A DNA stretch of 36,619 nucleotides from Treponema denticola (GTDB lineage: Bacteria; Spirochaetota; Spirochaetia; Treponematales; Breznakiellaceae): positions 1 through 36,619 of the forward strand of contig DYPP01000021.1 in NCBI GenBank assembly GCA_020719845.1, in the 5' to 3' direction. Of the stretch, positions 14,477-21,117 are shown piece after piece. The position numbers and the translations under genes are program-made. Below the pieces are notes generated by a model. The model searched no databases. It was not told the DNA's origin and was given only the letters and a program-made list of their open reading frames with translations. Within the stretch, counting starts at the first letter, position 1. Every line of letters begins with the position of its first letter.

Positions 14477-16690
14477 ATGGGTCGAAGCAGTGTTACCCTG
14501 CGCCTCAAACTGGTAGTCGCCATCGGAATCTTGGTCTTGATTATTTTCGGCATTACCGGAACGCTGATCCGCACCAAAATCAAGGCCAGTACCGAAGAAC
14601 AAGCCATCGTCTACATGGAGGCGCTTTCCCATGAGTTCGGGAACAAGGCCGAAGGGATGATCGACGTCCCGCTGGACGCGACGCGGACGCTGGCGCAGAT
14701 GGTCCCCATTGCCCTGGAGCTGTCCGCCGGGGAACGGCGTCCCTTCCTGCTCAAGACCATGGAAACCGTGTTGAAGCGGAACCCGGGTTTTTTCGGCATC
14801 CGGATGGTCTTTGAGCCCGAAGCCCTGCAGGACGGCGACTTTGCCTACGCCGGCAAGACCGCGTTGGGCAGCGACTCCCAGGGAGTCTTCAATCCCTATT
14901 TCTACCGCGACGGCTCCGGCATCGCTTCCCAGGTCAATGAAGCTTCCGAGGACTATCTGGAATCCTACTATCTGATTCCCAAGGTTTCGGGTACGGACTA
15001 CGTGGCGGAGCCCTATTTTGAGGAAGAAGTTGGTCAAACCAAGGAATGGATGTTCCGCGTCGGCGCGCCGGTCAAAATCGGCGACCGGGTGCTCGGCATC
15101 GTGGTCATCGATATCCGGGCAGCCTCGATCAATGAAGAACTGAACAAGCTTACGCTCTACAAGACCGGCTTCGGCCGGCTGATGTCCAGCAAGGGGGTGG
15201 TCGTATCCCACAAGGCTCCCGGCCGGATCGGCAAGCCGGCGCCGGAATGGACGGACGCCAAGAACGCGCCGCTGATTCAGGAAGTGTACGCCGGCGCGGT
15301 AAAAACCGTTGAAGCCTATTCCATCGCCAACGATGAAATCGACATGAAGACCTTTGTCCCGGTTTATTTCGGCAATTCCAGGGAACCCTGGATCGTCGGA
15401 ACGGTAGTCCCGATCCACGAGATCTATGAATCCAGCAACCGTCTCGTCGCGTCGATCGTGGTCATGATGCTGTTCGGCCTGTTCTTGATCCTGGCGGGCA
15501 TCTACTTCGCCGCCCTGCTCATGACCAGGACGTTGACCAAGGTTTCCGGAGCCTTGAAAAACATCTCCCAGGGCGACGCTGATTTGACCCAACGGTTGCC
15601 GGTAAAAACCACCGACGAGGTGGGGCAGATCGCGGGCAACTTCAACAACTTCGTCGCCATGCTGGACGGCATCATCCGGTCCATCCGCGCTTCCATCGAA
15701 AAACTGGACGCCGTAGCCCAGGGGCTTTCGGCCAGCATGGAACAAACCTCATCGGCGGTGTACGAAATCAACTCCAACATCGAAAGCAGCAAGGCCCGCA
15801 TCGAAGGGCAAGCCGCGTCGGTCAGCGAAGTCAGCACCGCCATGGATCAAATCAACCGCACCATCGACGGTTTCGGCGGACGCATCGACGAGCTCAACCG
15901 CAACATCGGCGACAGTTCGTCGGCCATCGAGGAAATGATCGCCAACATCGCGTCCGTAACCGGCACGGTGGACCGCAGCCTCACAGAAATCGAGAACCTC
16001 CGTTCCCTTTCGGAAACGGGGTATGAAAAACTCACCGCCGTCGCAACCACCATCACGGACATCAAGAATCAGTCCGAAGGCTTGCTGGAAGCCAACGCGG
16101 TCATCCAGAGCATTTCCGCCCAGACCAATCTGCTGGCCATGAACGCCGCCATCGAAGCCGCCCACGCCGGCGAATCGGGACGCGGCTTTGCCGTCGTCGC
16201 CGACGAAATCCGGAAACTGGCGGAAAACTCCGCCGCCCAGTCCAAGACCATTACCCGGGTGCTCGCTTCTTTCAAGACCCTGATGACCTCCGTCGTCGCC
16301 GCCGCCGCGGACGCGGGCCAATCCTTTGAATCCGTCAGGGCGTCGGTCGGTCAGGTGGTGATGGTTCAGAAGAACATCGGCGCCGCCATGGAAGAGCAGA
16401 ACGCGGGCAGCAAAACCATCCTGGATTCGCTGGGCAATCTCCGTTCGGTCAGCCGGGACGTGGAGATGGGGGCGGAAGAAATGCGCGGCGCCGGACAGGC
16501 GATTCAGGCCGAAACCCAGACTCTGGTGTCGGTGACCGCGGAGATCCAGAACGGCATGGTCGAAATGGCGACGGGCACCAAAGAAATCAACACCGCCATC
16601 AGCGACGTCGTCGAGCTGAGCCTGAGCAACAAGCGCAATATCCAGACCGTCCGGGACCAGGTGGCGCGCTTTGTCACGAGCCGGGAATAA
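14477..16690 (+). CDS. Methyl-accepting chemotaxis protein with Cache sensor
   Basis: The product is 737 aa from ATG 14477 with AAGGAG at 14465-14470. The N-terminal helix (~11-31) is followed by an extracytoplasmic dCache domain (~40-320, with [30 protein letters not shown] and ILGIVVIDI-like strands). A second helix lies at ~327-352 and a HAMP domain at ~353-405. A long signalling coiled coil ends near residue 730. The conserved hairpin tip, [20 protein letters not shown] then [20 protein letters not shown], lies around residues 545-585 and binds CheA/CheW. There is no C-terminal CheR-tethering pentapeptide. It would tune flagellar rotation to an external small ligand. Its 3' end overlaps the convergent hybrid kinase by 17 bp. 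Confidence 0.93.
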
Positions 16691-18605
16691 GGGAAAGGAT
16701 CAGCTCGAACAGTTCCCGCTCCCGGATGGGTTTTCCGGCAAAGCCGTTCATACCCACCTCGGCGCAGAGCCGGCGGTCCGCGTCCAGGTCATGCGCGCTG
16801 ACCGCCAGGATGGGGGTTTGGGCGTTGATCGACGCCCCTTGGCGGATCGTCTTGGTCACCTCGATGCCGTCGATGTCGGGCAGTCCGATATCCATCAGGA
16901 TCAGGTCGTACCGGTTTTTTCCCGTCAGCGACAACGCCGATCCCCCGTCGGGGGCTTCATCCACCGCGTAGCCGCGCTTCCGCAGCAGGTTGCGTCCGTA
17001 CAGCCGATTGATGGCCTCGTCTTCAACCAGCAGGATGCGGGCGGCCGATTCTTGCGCGCTGTTCACAGCCGCAGTTGAGCTGTCCGGCGTGGTTGTAGTC
17101 GTCGAGTAAGCGGCGCGCGCTTCACCCTGGGGAATCTTTATCTTCAGCACAAAGCAGGCGCCCCCTGCATCTTGGTCACGGATTTCCACGCTCCCGCCGT
17201 ACGCCTTGGCGATCCGGTCGACCACCGCCAAACCGAGCCCTGCTCCGCCCTTGGACCGCCGTTTGGGATCTTCCAGGCGCACGTAGGGCTGCATGACCTC
17301 CGGCCGACGGTCGGCGGGAATCCCCGGACCGGAATCACGGACTTCGACCCGCAGCACGCCCTCGGACCAGGACAGATCGAGTACGACCGGGCCGCGCTCC
17401 CCGTATTTGGCGGCGTTGGAGAGCAGCTGCCTGACGGCCTGATTCACCTTGTTCAGGTCTCCGACCAGAATGGCCGGCAATTCCCCCCGGCGGACGCTGA
17501 TTTCCCGACCCGTACCGGAAAGAAATTCTTGCCCCGCCCGCAGCGCCTCCTGAACCAGTTCCTCCGTCGGAAAAGGCACGTTCGTCAGCACCGGCGCCAC
17601 GCCGTCGGCCTGGGCGGCTTCGATCATGCCGTCCACGATGGCGGTGAACGCCCGGGTGCGCTCTTCCAGCAAGGACAACGACTCGGCTGACGCCCGGCCC
17701 TCGTCCCGCAGCATGGACAGAATACCGGCCATGCCGTTCAGGGGCGTCCGCAGTTCGTGGCTGACGTTCTCCAGCAGCGCCGTTTTGGCGGTGGCCGCTT
17801 TTTCGGCAGTTTCCTTGGCTGCCAGTTCCCGGTCCCGGGCGGCTTCCAGCTCCACCCGGCGGGCGCGCAGCTTGAGGTCCATATCGGTCAGCGATTCTTC
17901 CAGCGTCCTTAATTCCCGGACGGAGGTATGCGAGAATCCGGCACTCTGCCCGCCGGCGGCGATGCGCCGGGCGTTCTCGGCCATCCCTTCCACCGGAACG
18001 GACACCGACCGCGCAAAGTAATAGCCGATAACCACCGAAACCAACCCTGATGCCAGACCGGTAAACACGCCGATGGCCATCAGCAGAACCAAGCGTTCCC
18101 AAGTCGAGGATAGCGAAACGACGATGGCCGCCGAACCCAGCCAGGCGCCTTGATAGCTGACTTCCGTACGGTAGCCGATGGACCCATCCTTGAACGCGGC
18201 CCACCAGCGGGAAAAACCCTGCCAGGGCCGACCATGCTGCGGCACATCTTCCAGACTGGCCGCGCTGAGCACGTCGATCTTTTTTCCCCGATAGGCGGGT
18301 TGGGATGCCACGACGATCTTGCCGTCCGCATCGGAAACAAACGCTCCCACCACGTTCATACGCTGCGCAAAGCTGGCTACCGTACCCTCGAGCGAAACAT
18401 AACCCTCCACCAGCAGGGGCTCGATAGCCCCGAGAGCCAGGGAATCGGCCAGGGAAGCGGCGTACTCTTCGGCGTTGCGTACCGAGACGCCCAGATAAAT
18501 CAGCGCCGTCGCGCCCACGAACAGCGCCGTAGAAATCAGACTGGTAATCAGCGTGCTGAAGAAGAGCGTTCTTCTGATGGATTTTATCTTGGCGGGTCTT
18601 TTCAT
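16674..18605 (-). CDS. Hybrid sensor histidine kinase with receiver domain
   Basis: The product is 643 aa from ATG 18605, 4 nt downstream of the binding-protein stop. A longer in-frame ATG at 18662 would overlap that gene by 53 bp and is less likely. Parts: transmembrane helix (~14-36); short periplasmic domain with [20 protein letters not shown]; second helix (~155-180); HAMP (~182-235); coiled coil; HisKA with [13 protein letters not shown] (His283); HATPase with [24 protein letters not shown] and [10 protein letters not shown]; and a C-terminal receiver opening [17 protein letters not shown] with phosphoacceptor Asp572 in [13 protein letters not shown]. Phosphate would pass from His283 to Asp572 and then to an unseen phosphotransfer protein. 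Co-transcription with the PhnD-like gene suggests that protein presents the ligand to this kinase. Confidence 0.92.
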
Positions 18606-18609
18606 CGGT

Positions 18610-19443
18610 TCAAGGCACCAATTTTTGATAGTAGTCGCGGAATTCCGCGTAGTCGCCGTCATCCGCGGCCACCAGCCGGTCCAGCTTTAGTTCCCGCAAA
18701 AAATTGTTTTCAAATTCGCTTGATCCGTCGATGGCCGCCAGGGCTGATTGGATACGTTCCCGCTGCGTCTTGTCCATGGTAGTCCGCACCGCAAAGGGGA
18801 ACTGGGGAATATCCACCGACCGGGCCAACACCCGCAACTGATCCTTGGTCGCTTCATACACCGAAGAACGGGCATAGGTATCCTCGGCGAACAAGCCCAC
18901 GTCCGCCTTGCCGTTGATGACCATGAAGGGAATGGCTTCGACCCGGTTGGTAAAGCTGACCGCCGCATCCCGGTAGATGTCCATGCCGGCTTCCTCGAAC
19001 AGGACGCGCATGAAAACGAACCCCGCCAATGAAGCTTTTGAAACTGCGGCGATCCGGGCGCCCTTCAAGTCGGAGATGGATCGATATGGCGAATCCGCCC
19101 GTACGATAGCAATCCCGTGGAAAGGCGGCTCCCCCCGGGCTACTATGGATATTTTACCGGCTGCGGACAGGGTAAGATACCCGGAAATATGCACGTACAG
19201 CACATCATACTGGTCGTCAGCGGCCCGATCGATAAACATTTCCATGCTGGGCGCGGAAACCAGTTTTACCGGCCGGGCCAGGGTCTGCTGCAAGTAGACC
19301 GCCAAAGGCTGAAAAATCCGGATCGTGGTCTTGGCGTCGTAAATGGGCACAATCCCTAAACGCAGCGGCTCCTGCGCCTGTCCATGTACGGATGAAACCA
19401 GCCCCGCGATCAGCACTAGGGTAGGAATCCTTGATGATTTCAT
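18610..19443 (-). CDS. PhnD-type periplasmic binding protein (phosphate/phosphonate family)
   Basis: The product is 277 aa from ATG 19443. The longer frame to 19479 adds 12 residues ahead of the signal peptide and is not preferred. A type I-like signal peptide (LVLIAGLVSSVHGQAQ) has no lipobox Cys. The mature protein begins LRLGIVPIYDAKTTIRIFQP, typical of PhnD / type II binding proteins, and continues with LAVYLQQTL, YDVLYVHISGYL, VRADSPYRSISDLKGARIA and FVFMRVLFEEAG. The family carries phosphonate, phosphite or related oxyanions to ABC importers, but no permease or ATPase gene is next to it. A hybrid kinase follows 4 nt downstream. I infer a sensory co-receptor, as described for other PhnD-like proteins linked to kinases. 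No Shine-Dalgarno is evident. Confidence 0.85.
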   Translation of the reverse strand: MKSSRIPTLVLIAGLVSSVHGQAQEPLRLGIVPIYDAKTTIRIFQPLAVYLQQTLARPVKLVSAPSMEMFIDRAADDQYDVLYVHISGYLTLSAAGKISIVARGEPPFHGIAIVRADSPYRSISDLKGARIAAVSKASLAGFVFMRVLFEEAGMDIYRDAAVSFTNRVEAIPFMVINGKADVGLFAEDTYARSSVYEATKDQLRVLARSVDIPQFPFAVRTTMDKTQRERIQSALAAIDGSSEFENNFLRELKLDRLVAADDGDYAEFRDYYQKLVP

Positions 19444-19457
19444 TATCAAAAGTATAG

Positions 19458-19524
19458 GACCCGGAAAACCGGGCGTCAAATAATTTTAAAATTCTCGGAA
19501 AACGGCTCCCGGGATGTTCGGGAG
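19458..19524 (-). promoter_or_regulatory. Leader with two hairpins ahead of the PhnD-like gene
   Basis: Two inverted repeats lie between the proposed promoter and the start codon: CTCCCG/CGGGAG at 19506-19511 and 19519-19524 (7-nt loop), and CCCGG-AAAA-CCGGG at 19460-19473, 17 nt from the ATG. Neither is followed by a clear U-run, so they are not obvious terminators. They could limit translation or stabilise the mRNA. Function is speculative. Confidence 0.3.
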
Positions 19525-19546: not shown

Positions 19547-19570
19547 TATTATACCATATCAGGTATAATA
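19547..19570. promoter_or_regulatory. hip operator 1
   Basis: Perfect inverted repeat TATTATACC-ATATCA-GGTATAATA with 9-bp arms and a 6-bp spacer, centred at 19558.5. It resembles HipB operators, which are short AT-rich palindromic arms around a spacer. It shares the core TATACC-N6-GGTATA with operator 3. Confidence 0.7.
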
Positions 19571-19576
19571 AATTAA
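19548..19576 (-). promoter_or_regulatory. Possible promoter of the PhnD-like/kinase operon
   Basis: On the minus strand a perfect TATAAT (19553-19548) lies 17 bp from a weak TTAATT (19576-19571). The -10 box falls inside operator 1 of the divergent hip operon, so the hip repressor could also affect this promoter. Confidence 0.4.
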
Positions 19577-19589
19577 AAATTGTATAAAA

Positions 19590-19607
19590 TATACCCTATC
19601 GGGATTT
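19590..19607. promoter_or_regulatory. hip operator 2 (degenerate)
   Basis: TATACC-CTATCG-GGATTT has the left arm of the TATACC-N6-GGTATA core intact and the right arm decayed. It is centred at 19598.5, exactly 40 bp from both operators 1 and 3. Confidence 0.5.
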
Positions 19608-19622
19608 ATTATTTCAATTTGA

Positions 19623-19651
19623 TTGAAATTATACCTGTAAAGGTATATCAT
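19623..19651 (+). promoter_or_regulatory. hipBST promoter
   Basis: TTGAAA (19623-19628), a 17-bp spacer, then TATCAT (19646-19651); both hexamers match 5 of 6 consensus bases. Transcription would begin at about 19658, the A of the hipB ATG, which would make the message leaderless and explain the missing Shine-Dalgarno. Confidence 0.55.
19630..19647. promoter_or_regulatory. hip operator 3
   Basis: Perfect TATACC-TGTAAA-GGTATA centred at 19638.5. It lies between and over the proposed -35 and -10 boxes of hipB, where a bound repressor would exclude RNA polymerase. It ends 10 nt before the hipB ATG. Confidence 0.7.
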
Positions 19652-19657
19652 ATCCTT

Positions 19658-19879
19658 ATGAAGGAACCCTCCAGCCTTATGTCGGCCCTGGTTAAACAAG
19701 AACGCAAACGGACGGGGATGACCCAGATCGATCTGGCCATGACTGCCGGAGTCGGCCTCCGCTTTGTCCGCGACCTGGAACAGGGCAAGACGACGCTCCG
19801 GCTGGACAAGGTCGATCAAGTCCTCAGGCTCTTCGGATACCGGACCGGCCCGGTCCGGCAGAAAACCATAGATGCGTAG
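19658..19879 (+). CDS. hipB: HipB-like helix-turn-helix repressor/antitoxin
   Basis: The product is 73 aa from ATG 19658; the open frame back to 19580 runs through the operators and is not used. ATG 19679 is an alternative. It is a compact Xre-type HTH: LVKQERKRTGMTQIDLAMTA, then GVGLRFVRDLEQGKTTLRLD, then KVDQVLRLFGYR. That is the exact style of HipB proteins paired with HipA-like kinases (FIRDLEQGK, RLDKL-type motifs). It should bind the three upstream TATACC-type operators as a dimer and autorepress. The gene overlaps hipS by 8 bp. No Shine-Dalgarno is seen, and the promoter predicts a leaderless transcript. Confidence 0.85.
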   Translation: MKEPSSLMSALVKQERKRTGMTQIDLAMTAGVGLRFVRDLEQGKTTLRLDKVDQVLRLFGYRTGPVRQKTIDA

Positions 19880-20186
19880 CCTGCTGGTGTATTACCAAGA
19901 CCAGGAAGCGGGAATTCTGGAAGAAACGGAAGAGGGCTACCGTTTTACGTATTATGAGACCTGGGTAGCCGCGGACAGGAATGCGGTCAGCCTGACCCTT
20001 CCCCTTCGTCGGGAGCCGTACGATTCGCGCACTTTGTTCGCCTTTTTTGACGGCCTCATTCCGGAAGGCTGGCTGCTGGAACTGGGAACCCGCAACTGGA
20101 AACTGGATCCCCAGGATCGGTTCGGACTGCTGGCCGCGTTTTGCCGGGATACGGTCGGCGCGGCGGGAGTAGGACCGCATGAATAA
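19872..20186 (+). CDS. hipS: HipS-like protein (HipA N-terminal subdomain as a separate gene)
   Basis: The product is 104 aa from ATG 19872, overlapping hipB by 8 bp. It corresponds to the first subdomain of HipA: RSLLVYYQDQEAGILEE, a beta-rich segment with SLTLPLRREPYDSRTLFAFF, then DGLIPEGWLLELGTRNWKLD and FGLLAAFCRDTVGAAGV. In full-length HipA this domain is fused to the kinase; here it is a separate protein, as in the HipBST system of enteropathogenic E. coli, where HipS is the antitoxin that neutralises the HipT kinase. That role is inferred by analogy. Expression is probably coupled to both neighbours through the overlaps. Confidence 0.85.
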   Translation: MRSLLVYYQDQEAGILEETEEGYRFTYYETWVAADRNAVSLTLPLRREPYDSRTLFAFFDGLIPEGWLLELGTRNWKLDPQDRFGLLAAFCRDTVGAAGVGPHE

Positions 20187-21117
20187 ATGCCTGGTCTGCG
20201 CTCTGCCGATCACTACCGACCCGGGGGCCGAATACCACACCCGCTGCGCTAAAGCCCTTTTTGAAACCCCTGCGGTTCCAATTATAGATATCGATTTGAA
20301 CAACCTGACGGAAGCCGGCTTGAATCTTTTACGAGCATCCGGATCCGTGGCGGGGGTCCAGAAAAAAATATCCGTAGACCGTCTCCCGGATCAACCCCGG
20401 CGCCTGAACCTGAGCGCCCTGGGCGGCCGCTTTATCCTGAAGCCGCCGGTGGACGAGTACCCCCATTTGCCCGAGAACGAAGCCTTCTGCATGGAGCTTT
20501 CCCAACGCCTTGGATATCCTACCGCTGCCCACGGACTGGGCCGCATAGCCGACGGCACGCTCGTTTACCTGACCCGCCGCTTTGACCGTCCGGCCAACGC
20601 CGCCAAAGTACCGCAAGAAGATTTTTGCCAAATCAGCCAACGTCCTGCCGCGGATAAATACAAGGGCAGCCTTGAAGCCGCGTCCAGGGCGCTCTCCTAT
20701 TCCCGTCAAACCGGTCTGGACGCAGTGCGTTTTCTGCAGCTCAACCTGATGGCCTGGCTGATGGGCAACGCCGACCTCCATCTAAAAAATTTTTCCCTTT
20801 ACTGTCCCGAGCCGAACCGATGGCAGTTGACTCCCGCTTACGACCTTGTTTCGACGGCGCTGGTGTTGCCCGACGATCGGGAAGAAACGGCCTTGACCCT
20901 CAACGGCAAGAAATCCAATCTGCGCCGGGGCGACTGGCTAGCCTTTTCAGGGCGCCTGGGAGTGGGCGAAAAAGTATTCGGCAACCTGGTCAAGCGCTTC
21001 TTGCAGGCCTGGCCGGTGGTCGAATCCCTGTGCCGGGCGTCTTTTTTGCCCGGGGAACAACAAAGCTCTTTCCTTCAACGCTGGCAGGAACGCGCCGGAC
21101 GGCTGGGGGACGGCTGA
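20179..21117 (+). CDS. hipT: HipT-like Ser/Thr kinase toxin
   Basis: The product is 312 aa from ATG 20179, overlapping hipS by 8 bp. It begins with a small CxxC...HxxC module (NKCLVCALPI, EYHTRCAKALF). The kinase core follows: glycine-rich loop SGSVAGVQKKISV (Ser54, Ser56), ATP lysine in GGRFILKPP, LPENEAFCMELSQRLG, TRRFDR, the catalytic loop MGNADLHLKNFSLY (Asp199, Asn204) and the metal-binding TPAYDLVST (Asp222). All active-site residues of the HipA family are present, so an active kinase is expected. In E. coli, HipA targets GltX and HipT targets TrpS, stalling translation; the target here is unknown. It lacks the HipA N-terminal subdomain, which is supplied by hipS. Confidence 0.88.
   Translation: MNKCLVCALPITTDPGAEYHTRCAKALFETPAVPIIDIDLNNLTEAGLNLLRASGSVAGVQKKISVDRLPDQPRRLNLSALGGRFILKPPVDEYPHLPENEAFCMELSQRLGYPTAAHGLGRIADGTLVYLTRRFDRPANAAKVPQEDFCQISQRPAADKYKGSLEAASRALSYSRQTGLDAVRFLQLNLMAWLMGNADLHLKNFSLYCPEPNRWQLTPAYDLVSTALVLPDDREETALTLNGKKSNLRRGDWLAFSGRLGVGEKVFGNLVKRFLQAWPVVESLCRASFLPGEQQSSFLQRWQERAGRLGDG

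Follow-up and report, generated by a model that had tools for sequence, protein, structure and literature searches.

The window, by which we mean the whole stretch of 36,619 nucleotides analysed here, carries an operon of three overlapping genes preceded by a regular array of palindromes (Table 1). The best solved relatives of the three products are the Legionella chains HipB(Lp) (PDB 8ezt, E = 2.4e-6), HipS(Lp) (7vkb, E = 4.9e-17) and HipT(Lp) (8ezr/7vkb, E = 1.3e-45). The genes stand in the order hipB-hipS-hipT, as in HipBST systems, and hipS as well as hipT overlaps the end of the preceding gene by 8 nt. HipS corresponds to the N-subdomain 1 of HipA and HipT to the HipA core kinase without that subdomain, which is the division expected of a HipBST module. 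The kinase motifs SVAGVQKK (residues 56-63) and GNADLHLKN (residues 196-204) are conserved in the HipT alignment; the P-loop reads MSVQGVQKK in the Legionella protein versus SVAGVQKK here, and the P-loop serine is present. Since its best solved relatives are the three Legionella proteins, the operon is, as judged by homology, a tripartite HipBST module closest to the Legionella type and not a plain hipBA operon. The tripartite nature had been missed in the preliminary description of this DNA.

Table 1. Genes and regulatory features at the hipBST locus (positions in the window)
Feature	Positions	Strand	Evidence or remark
PhnD-like periplasmic binding protein gene (neighbour)	18610..19443	-	PF12974, E = 2.9e-48
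Promoter of the PhnD-like gene, TTGACG-N17-TATACT	19451..19479	-	7 bp before the ATG
Operator 1 (distal), perfect TATACC-N6-GGTATA	19550..19567, centre 19558.5	.	40/40 position matched in relatives
Operator 2, left arm intact (TATACCCTATCGGG), right arm decayed (GGATTT)	19590..19607, centre 19598.5	.	
hipB -35 box TTGAAA	19623..19628	+	TTGACA/TTGAAA-like hexamers at equal position in relatives
Operator 3 (proximal), perfect, fills the -35/-10 spacer	19630..19647, centre 19638.5	.	
hipB -10 box TATCAT (TAnnnT)	19646..19651	+	6 bp before the ATG; relatives alike
hipB, 73 aa, Y4mF/HipB-type HTH repressor	19658..19879	+	NCBIfam TIGR03070 (couple_hipB/Y4mF antitoxin), E = 3.7e-22, above cut-off
hipS, 104 aa, HipA N-subdomain-1-like, probable antitoxin	19872..20186	+	PF13657, E = 2.6e-25
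hipT, 312 aa, HipA_C Ser/Thr kinase, probable toxin	20179..21117	+	PF07804, E = 2.7e-44

Upstream of hipB the palindrome TATACC-N6-GGTATA occurs twice without any mismatch, and no other perfect copy is present in the genome of 3,306,793 bp, throughout which the reversed control pattern gave zero perfect matches. Operator 2 deviates from the palindrome at three positions; its equivalents in the relatives L004 and L183 are intact or nearly so and are equally spaced. From centre to centre the operators are 40 and 40 bp apart, leaving gaps of 22 bp, and the last TA of operator 3 forms the first bases of the hipB -10 box. The preliminary description had reported just such an array, two perfect hip operators and a half-decayed one at 40 bp twice. 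Its coordinates proved right and the array recurs in relatives, with which the family motif becomes TATACC(C)-N6(4)-(G)GGTATA. The intergenic region is A+T-rich and could in principle produce palindromes by chance. We find such an origin hardly conceivable, as the perfect sites are unique in the genome and their equal spacing recurs from the class level to other phyla; genome uniqueness and the comparison across relatives together refute it. A search of the genome for a wider HipB regulon, with one mismatch allowed, gave one further site and equally many in the reversed control, and the leader gave no Rfam match to a structured RNA or riboswitch.

Relatives were collected via HipT alone, from the family and class to which the genome of the window belongs and from one genome per GTDB species. 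The species-level set comprises 80 loci from Bacteroidota, Chlorobiota, Ignavibacteriota, Fibrobacterota, Cloacimonadota and Spirochaetota as well as a few metagenome bins labelled otherwise. A hipS gene is present in 110 of 110 relative loci and an upstream hipB in 108 of them. We scored the palindrome in 106 upstream regions without making use of distance and found 2.68 sites per region versus 0.15 in shuffled sequence, drawn for each region from a first-order Markov model and not by exact dinucleotide shuffling. The alignment of upstream regions that the preliminary description had proposed as a check came out in its favour: successive operators are 40-43 bp apart in 180 of 184 cases (40 bp, n = 62; 41 bp, n = 110; 42 bp, n = 7; 43 bp, n = 1), where about 0.1 would be expected (calculated at 39-42 bp). 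Two of the four remaining spacings, 79 and 82 bp, are about two periods with the middle site missing; those of 87 and 93 bp are unexplained. With HipT clustered at 60% identity, 34 clusters have at least two sites and 32 of them keep the spacing, and six HipBST loci on contigs of a viral collection display 40-42 bp as well. One more contig of that collection (L174, IMGVR_UViG_3300014613_003088) starts inside a hipT 67% identical to that of the window. In a reverse test we used no protein at all but only the DNA pattern of two operators 40 bp apart. This pattern was found in 8 of 298 related genomes and 0 times in the reversed control, and all eight matches adjoin hipBST genes, one of them decayed and with no hipB found.

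The DNA between the operators behaves differently. Identity between loci is 84% for the operator arms and only 35% and 39% for the two linkers, with 33-34% predicted from base composition. Because the spacing recurs in about 100 distant relatives of several phyla and the linker DNA does not, it is the distance itself that appears to be selected. Thus, as far as upstream sequences can tell, the 40-41-bp distance is a property of the HipBST operon family and under selection. We also considered that three independent HipB operators are present of which only operator 3 represses, the even spacing being a relic of an ancestral array that was spread by horizontal transfer. HipBST operons do seem to move between lineages according to our HipT tree, operator 2 is decayed in the window, and the Legionella authors contrast the shift pattern of their HipB with cooperative binding (PMC10653801). 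A relic would however drift in length, and 40-41 bp are kept among clusters whose HipT proteins are less than 60% identical, at a divergence where the similarity of the linkers is lost. We therefore regard the relic as unlikely and favour a selected distance. Some loci depart from the common layout. L073, L077, L080, L089 and L126 look as though they had lost the proximal operator: in each the start comes only 40-43 bp after the last operator, which thus sits a whole period higher. The HipBST relatives L062, L078, L091, L109, L110, L122 and L129 have an altered palindrome or none, and L109, L110 and L129 among them seemingly have another repeat at similar spacing.

How does the array compare with known systems? 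The loci of Legionella, whose HipT is an injected effector, and of enteropathogenic E. coli were compared through their published descriptions. According to the Legionella paper (PMC10653801), three evenly spaced operators of 18 bp are each bound by HipB alone, HipT or HipS-HipT joins the HipB-DNA complex, the authors set the binding by HipB against the cooperative mode of its E. coli counterpart, and operators are described for Legionella species only. The L. pneumophila operon is, like ours, tripartite, belongs to the same clade and has three operators of 18 bp, each with arms of 6 nt, of which the proximal one covers the promoter; an array of this type is what we find in the window. The gaps in Legionella are however 53 bp (about 71 bp centre to centre) as opposed to 22-23 bp in the window and its relatives, and the proximal operator lies 24 nt from the start codon instead of 10 nt; the likeness noted here is one of layout. 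Three evenly spaced HipBST operators are thus known from Legionella, and the 40-41-bp array is a new, widely conserved version of them.

The hipBA operon of E. coli K-12 shares with the window the autoregulation by HipB, the palindromes over the promoter (four in K-12) and one interval of 39 bp. It differs in having two genes, spacings of 28/39/28 bp, a last operator 21 bp before hipB and the motif TATCC-N8-GGATA, which the operators of the window do not follow. Closer to home, two-gene hipBA operons with one-chain HipA from the taxonomic family of the window also have three evenly spaced palindromes before hipB. Their palindrome is TTACCGATCGGTAA, and the spacing is 48-50 bp in 16 of 16 steps and 49 bp in 11 of these (eight loci: L005, L006, L008, L009, L012, L014, L016 and L017); a further hipBA locus, L028, has 38/39 bp. 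The recognition region of HipB reads ANTG.RFI in these hipBA operons versus AGVGLRFVR in HipBST; theirs is a second ruler, with motif and recognition region both different.

The preliminary description had explained the spacing by the helical repeat, with the repressor dimers sitting on one face of the DNA. The regular array stands, but the common face is doubtful. At 10.5 bp per turn 40 and 41 bp correspond by arithmetic to 3.81 and 3.90 turns, which are not whole turns, and the 49 bp of the related hipBA arrays to about 4.7 turns; the 28/39/28 bp of E. coli K-12 give no better case for it. A shared helix face is therefore at best approximate and doubtful as a general rule. The length is constant within each architecture but differs between them, and this is more simply read as a ruler that adjoining protein complexes would set by touching than as matching of faces. 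Distance conserved without conservation of the linker is evolutionary evidence for an interaction of neighbouring HipB complexes, a question left open by the Legionella binding experiments. With an own spacing for each Hip group (40-41 bp in HipBST, 49 bp in same-family hipBA, 28/39/28 bp in E. coli) it becomes possible to test how operator spacing is linked to toxin architecture.

We now turn to the start of hipB. The promoter reads TTGAAA-17 bp-TATCAT-ATCCTT-ATG (19658), and hipB has the features expected of a leaderless gene, namely a -10 box whose end is 4-9 bp from the start codon and no Shine-Dalgarno sequence. That operator 3 lies within this promoter, between boxes 17 bp apart, and that hipB is possibly leaderless had already been proposed; both proposals gain from the comparison. 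In the closest relative L183 (HipT 71% identical) the operators are spaced 40/40 and followed by TTGCGC-N17-TATTAT-N6-ATG. There and in most of the class, 10 bp separate operator 3 from the start of hipB and 6 bp separate a TAnnnT box from it. In 25 loci the start follows operator 3 at 9-11 bp; of these, 23 have TAnnnT 4-9 bp upstream of the start, 16 at exactly 6 bp, and a single locus has a Shine-Dalgarno-like motif. L052-L054 and L056 differ, as they have a distance of 33 bp and a Shine-Dalgarno-like AGAGG before the ATG.

Alternatively, transcription from near 19658 could serve an inner start, for which an in-frame ATG at 19679 and a GAAGGA at 19660-19665 are available. This GAAGGA is 13 nt away from the ATG and thus too far for a usual Shine-Dalgarno sequence. 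Moreover, L183 has a phenylalanine at this position and an N-terminus which begins at the 10-bp distance, the mode in the class, and aligns without gaps and at equal length with that of the window (MKAMPNPFSALVKQ versus MKEPSSLMSALVKQ). A start at ATG 19679 was rejected on this N-terminus, and a hipB with a leader appears quite improbable to us. Because L183 shares both the layout and the length of the N-terminus, we favour ATG 19658, at which a leaderless start is likely. The hipB genes with the start layout of the window probably lack an untranslated leader altogether.

Leaderless genes have been predicted before in 6 of 18 spirochaete genomes (PMC3160421), and they seem to be common in the genome of the window. 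The pattern TTGAC..TAnnnT..ATG gave 147 matches counted on both strands. Among the matches listed 93 were tallied, with overlapping longer readings of one promoter left out, and of these listed matches 23 have a distance of 6 bp between -10 box and ATG, with every other distance represented 0-7 times. With up to 3 mismatches TTGACA-N17-TATAAT-N6-ATG matched 100 times in the genome versus 8 times in the reversed control. As the same 6-bp signature is seen genome-wide, a leaderless hipB would be a habit of the genome and not a speciality of the operon. The leaderless genes of lambda cI, of PaaR2 from E. coli O157:H7 and of restriction-modification C proteins resemble hipB in coding for HTH autorepressors behind operator-laden promoters; these belong to other repressor families and their starts were mapped experimentally, whereas that of hipB is deduced from sequence.

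The promoter around the array is not the same everywhere and has been rebuilt about a constant spacing. By eye, most Bacteroidota loci have the start 2-5 bp past operator 3, whose left arm adjoins a TAnnTTTG box, the promoter type of that phylum. In the loci of Cloacimonadota and KSB1 it is operator 2 that is covered by a promoter, of the form TTGAC..TATAAA (again by eye). L083, L115, L117 and L133 have this promoter over operator 2 and operator 3 over the Shine-Dalgarno/start region, a shift by one period. Placed on the HipT tree, the distance classes require 17 changes, 10 of which concern the 10-bp class, and at least 7 of the latter are forced by well-supported branches; the tree is a quick one with long branches and was used only to conclude that the 10-bp distance was gained or lost on several occasions. 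L134, from the Spirochaetales, falls inside the class clade of this tree, and the host of the window is probably a spirochaete of the order Treponematales.

We suggest, with good confidence, that the array would be the autoregulatory region of a Legionella-like HipBST operon, with HipB on three sites 40 bp apart as a selected ruler and a leaderless hipB mRNA. HipB binding, contact between neighbours, leaderless transcription and translational coupling are what we infer, and they could work together as follows. HipB dimers would bind the three 18-bp palindromes, 40 bp from centre to centre. Occupation of operator 3 between the -35 and -10 boxes would block RNA polymerase, and additional HipB or HipB-HipT(-HipS) complexes, loaded on operators 1 and 2 at a set distance, would make the repression stronger. 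Selection would keep the spacing as a fixed ruler, most simply since neighbouring complexes touch. When free HipB falls, transcription could start at or beside the A of the hipB ATG and yield a leaderless mRNA. Both hipS and hipT begin within the gene before them, and their translation is probably coupled to that of the latter; if hipB does start without a leader, the whole operon would depend for its translation on a single unusual initiation. More tentatively, and as a possibility that we would not yet call probable, the ruler might be read by a bridged HipB-HipT(-HipS) assembly whose kinase subunits touch only at 40-41 bp, so that toxin and repressor are sensed jointly on the DNA, with the ruler kept across several phyla while the start register and the promoter type, be it sigma-70-like around operator 3, TAnnTTTG against operator 3 or a promoter over operator 2, were repeatedly rebuilt.

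The gene on the other side of the array codes for a PhnD-like periplasmic binding protein and is probably not part of the HipBST system. The preliminary description had seen in operator 1 a TATAAT serving this gene and had concluded on dual control by the array. The hexamer exists (19553-19548, minus strand) and has only a weak -35 box; it arises automatically because the TATACC arm is flanked by AT. The same strand also holds TTGAAA-N18-TATATT over operator 2, and through this element or the TATAAT the PhnD-like gene might come under the array. The gene has, however, a better promoter of its own right before its ATG (Table 1), and the upstream neighbour in relatives is on the same strand in 48 loci and on the opposite strand in 39, with no common divergent partner. 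Dual control is thus unsupported and we hold it to be very unlikely. The promoter of the PhnD-like gene had been missed before. It makes this gene leaderless-looking as well (19441-19479, minus strand), and a GC-rich hairpin, CCCGGTTTTCCGGG, fills its spacer. The end of the PhnD-like gene is overlapped by a gene for a hybrid histidine kinase (16674-18662, minus strand), possibly a two-component sensor fed by the periplasmic binding protein.
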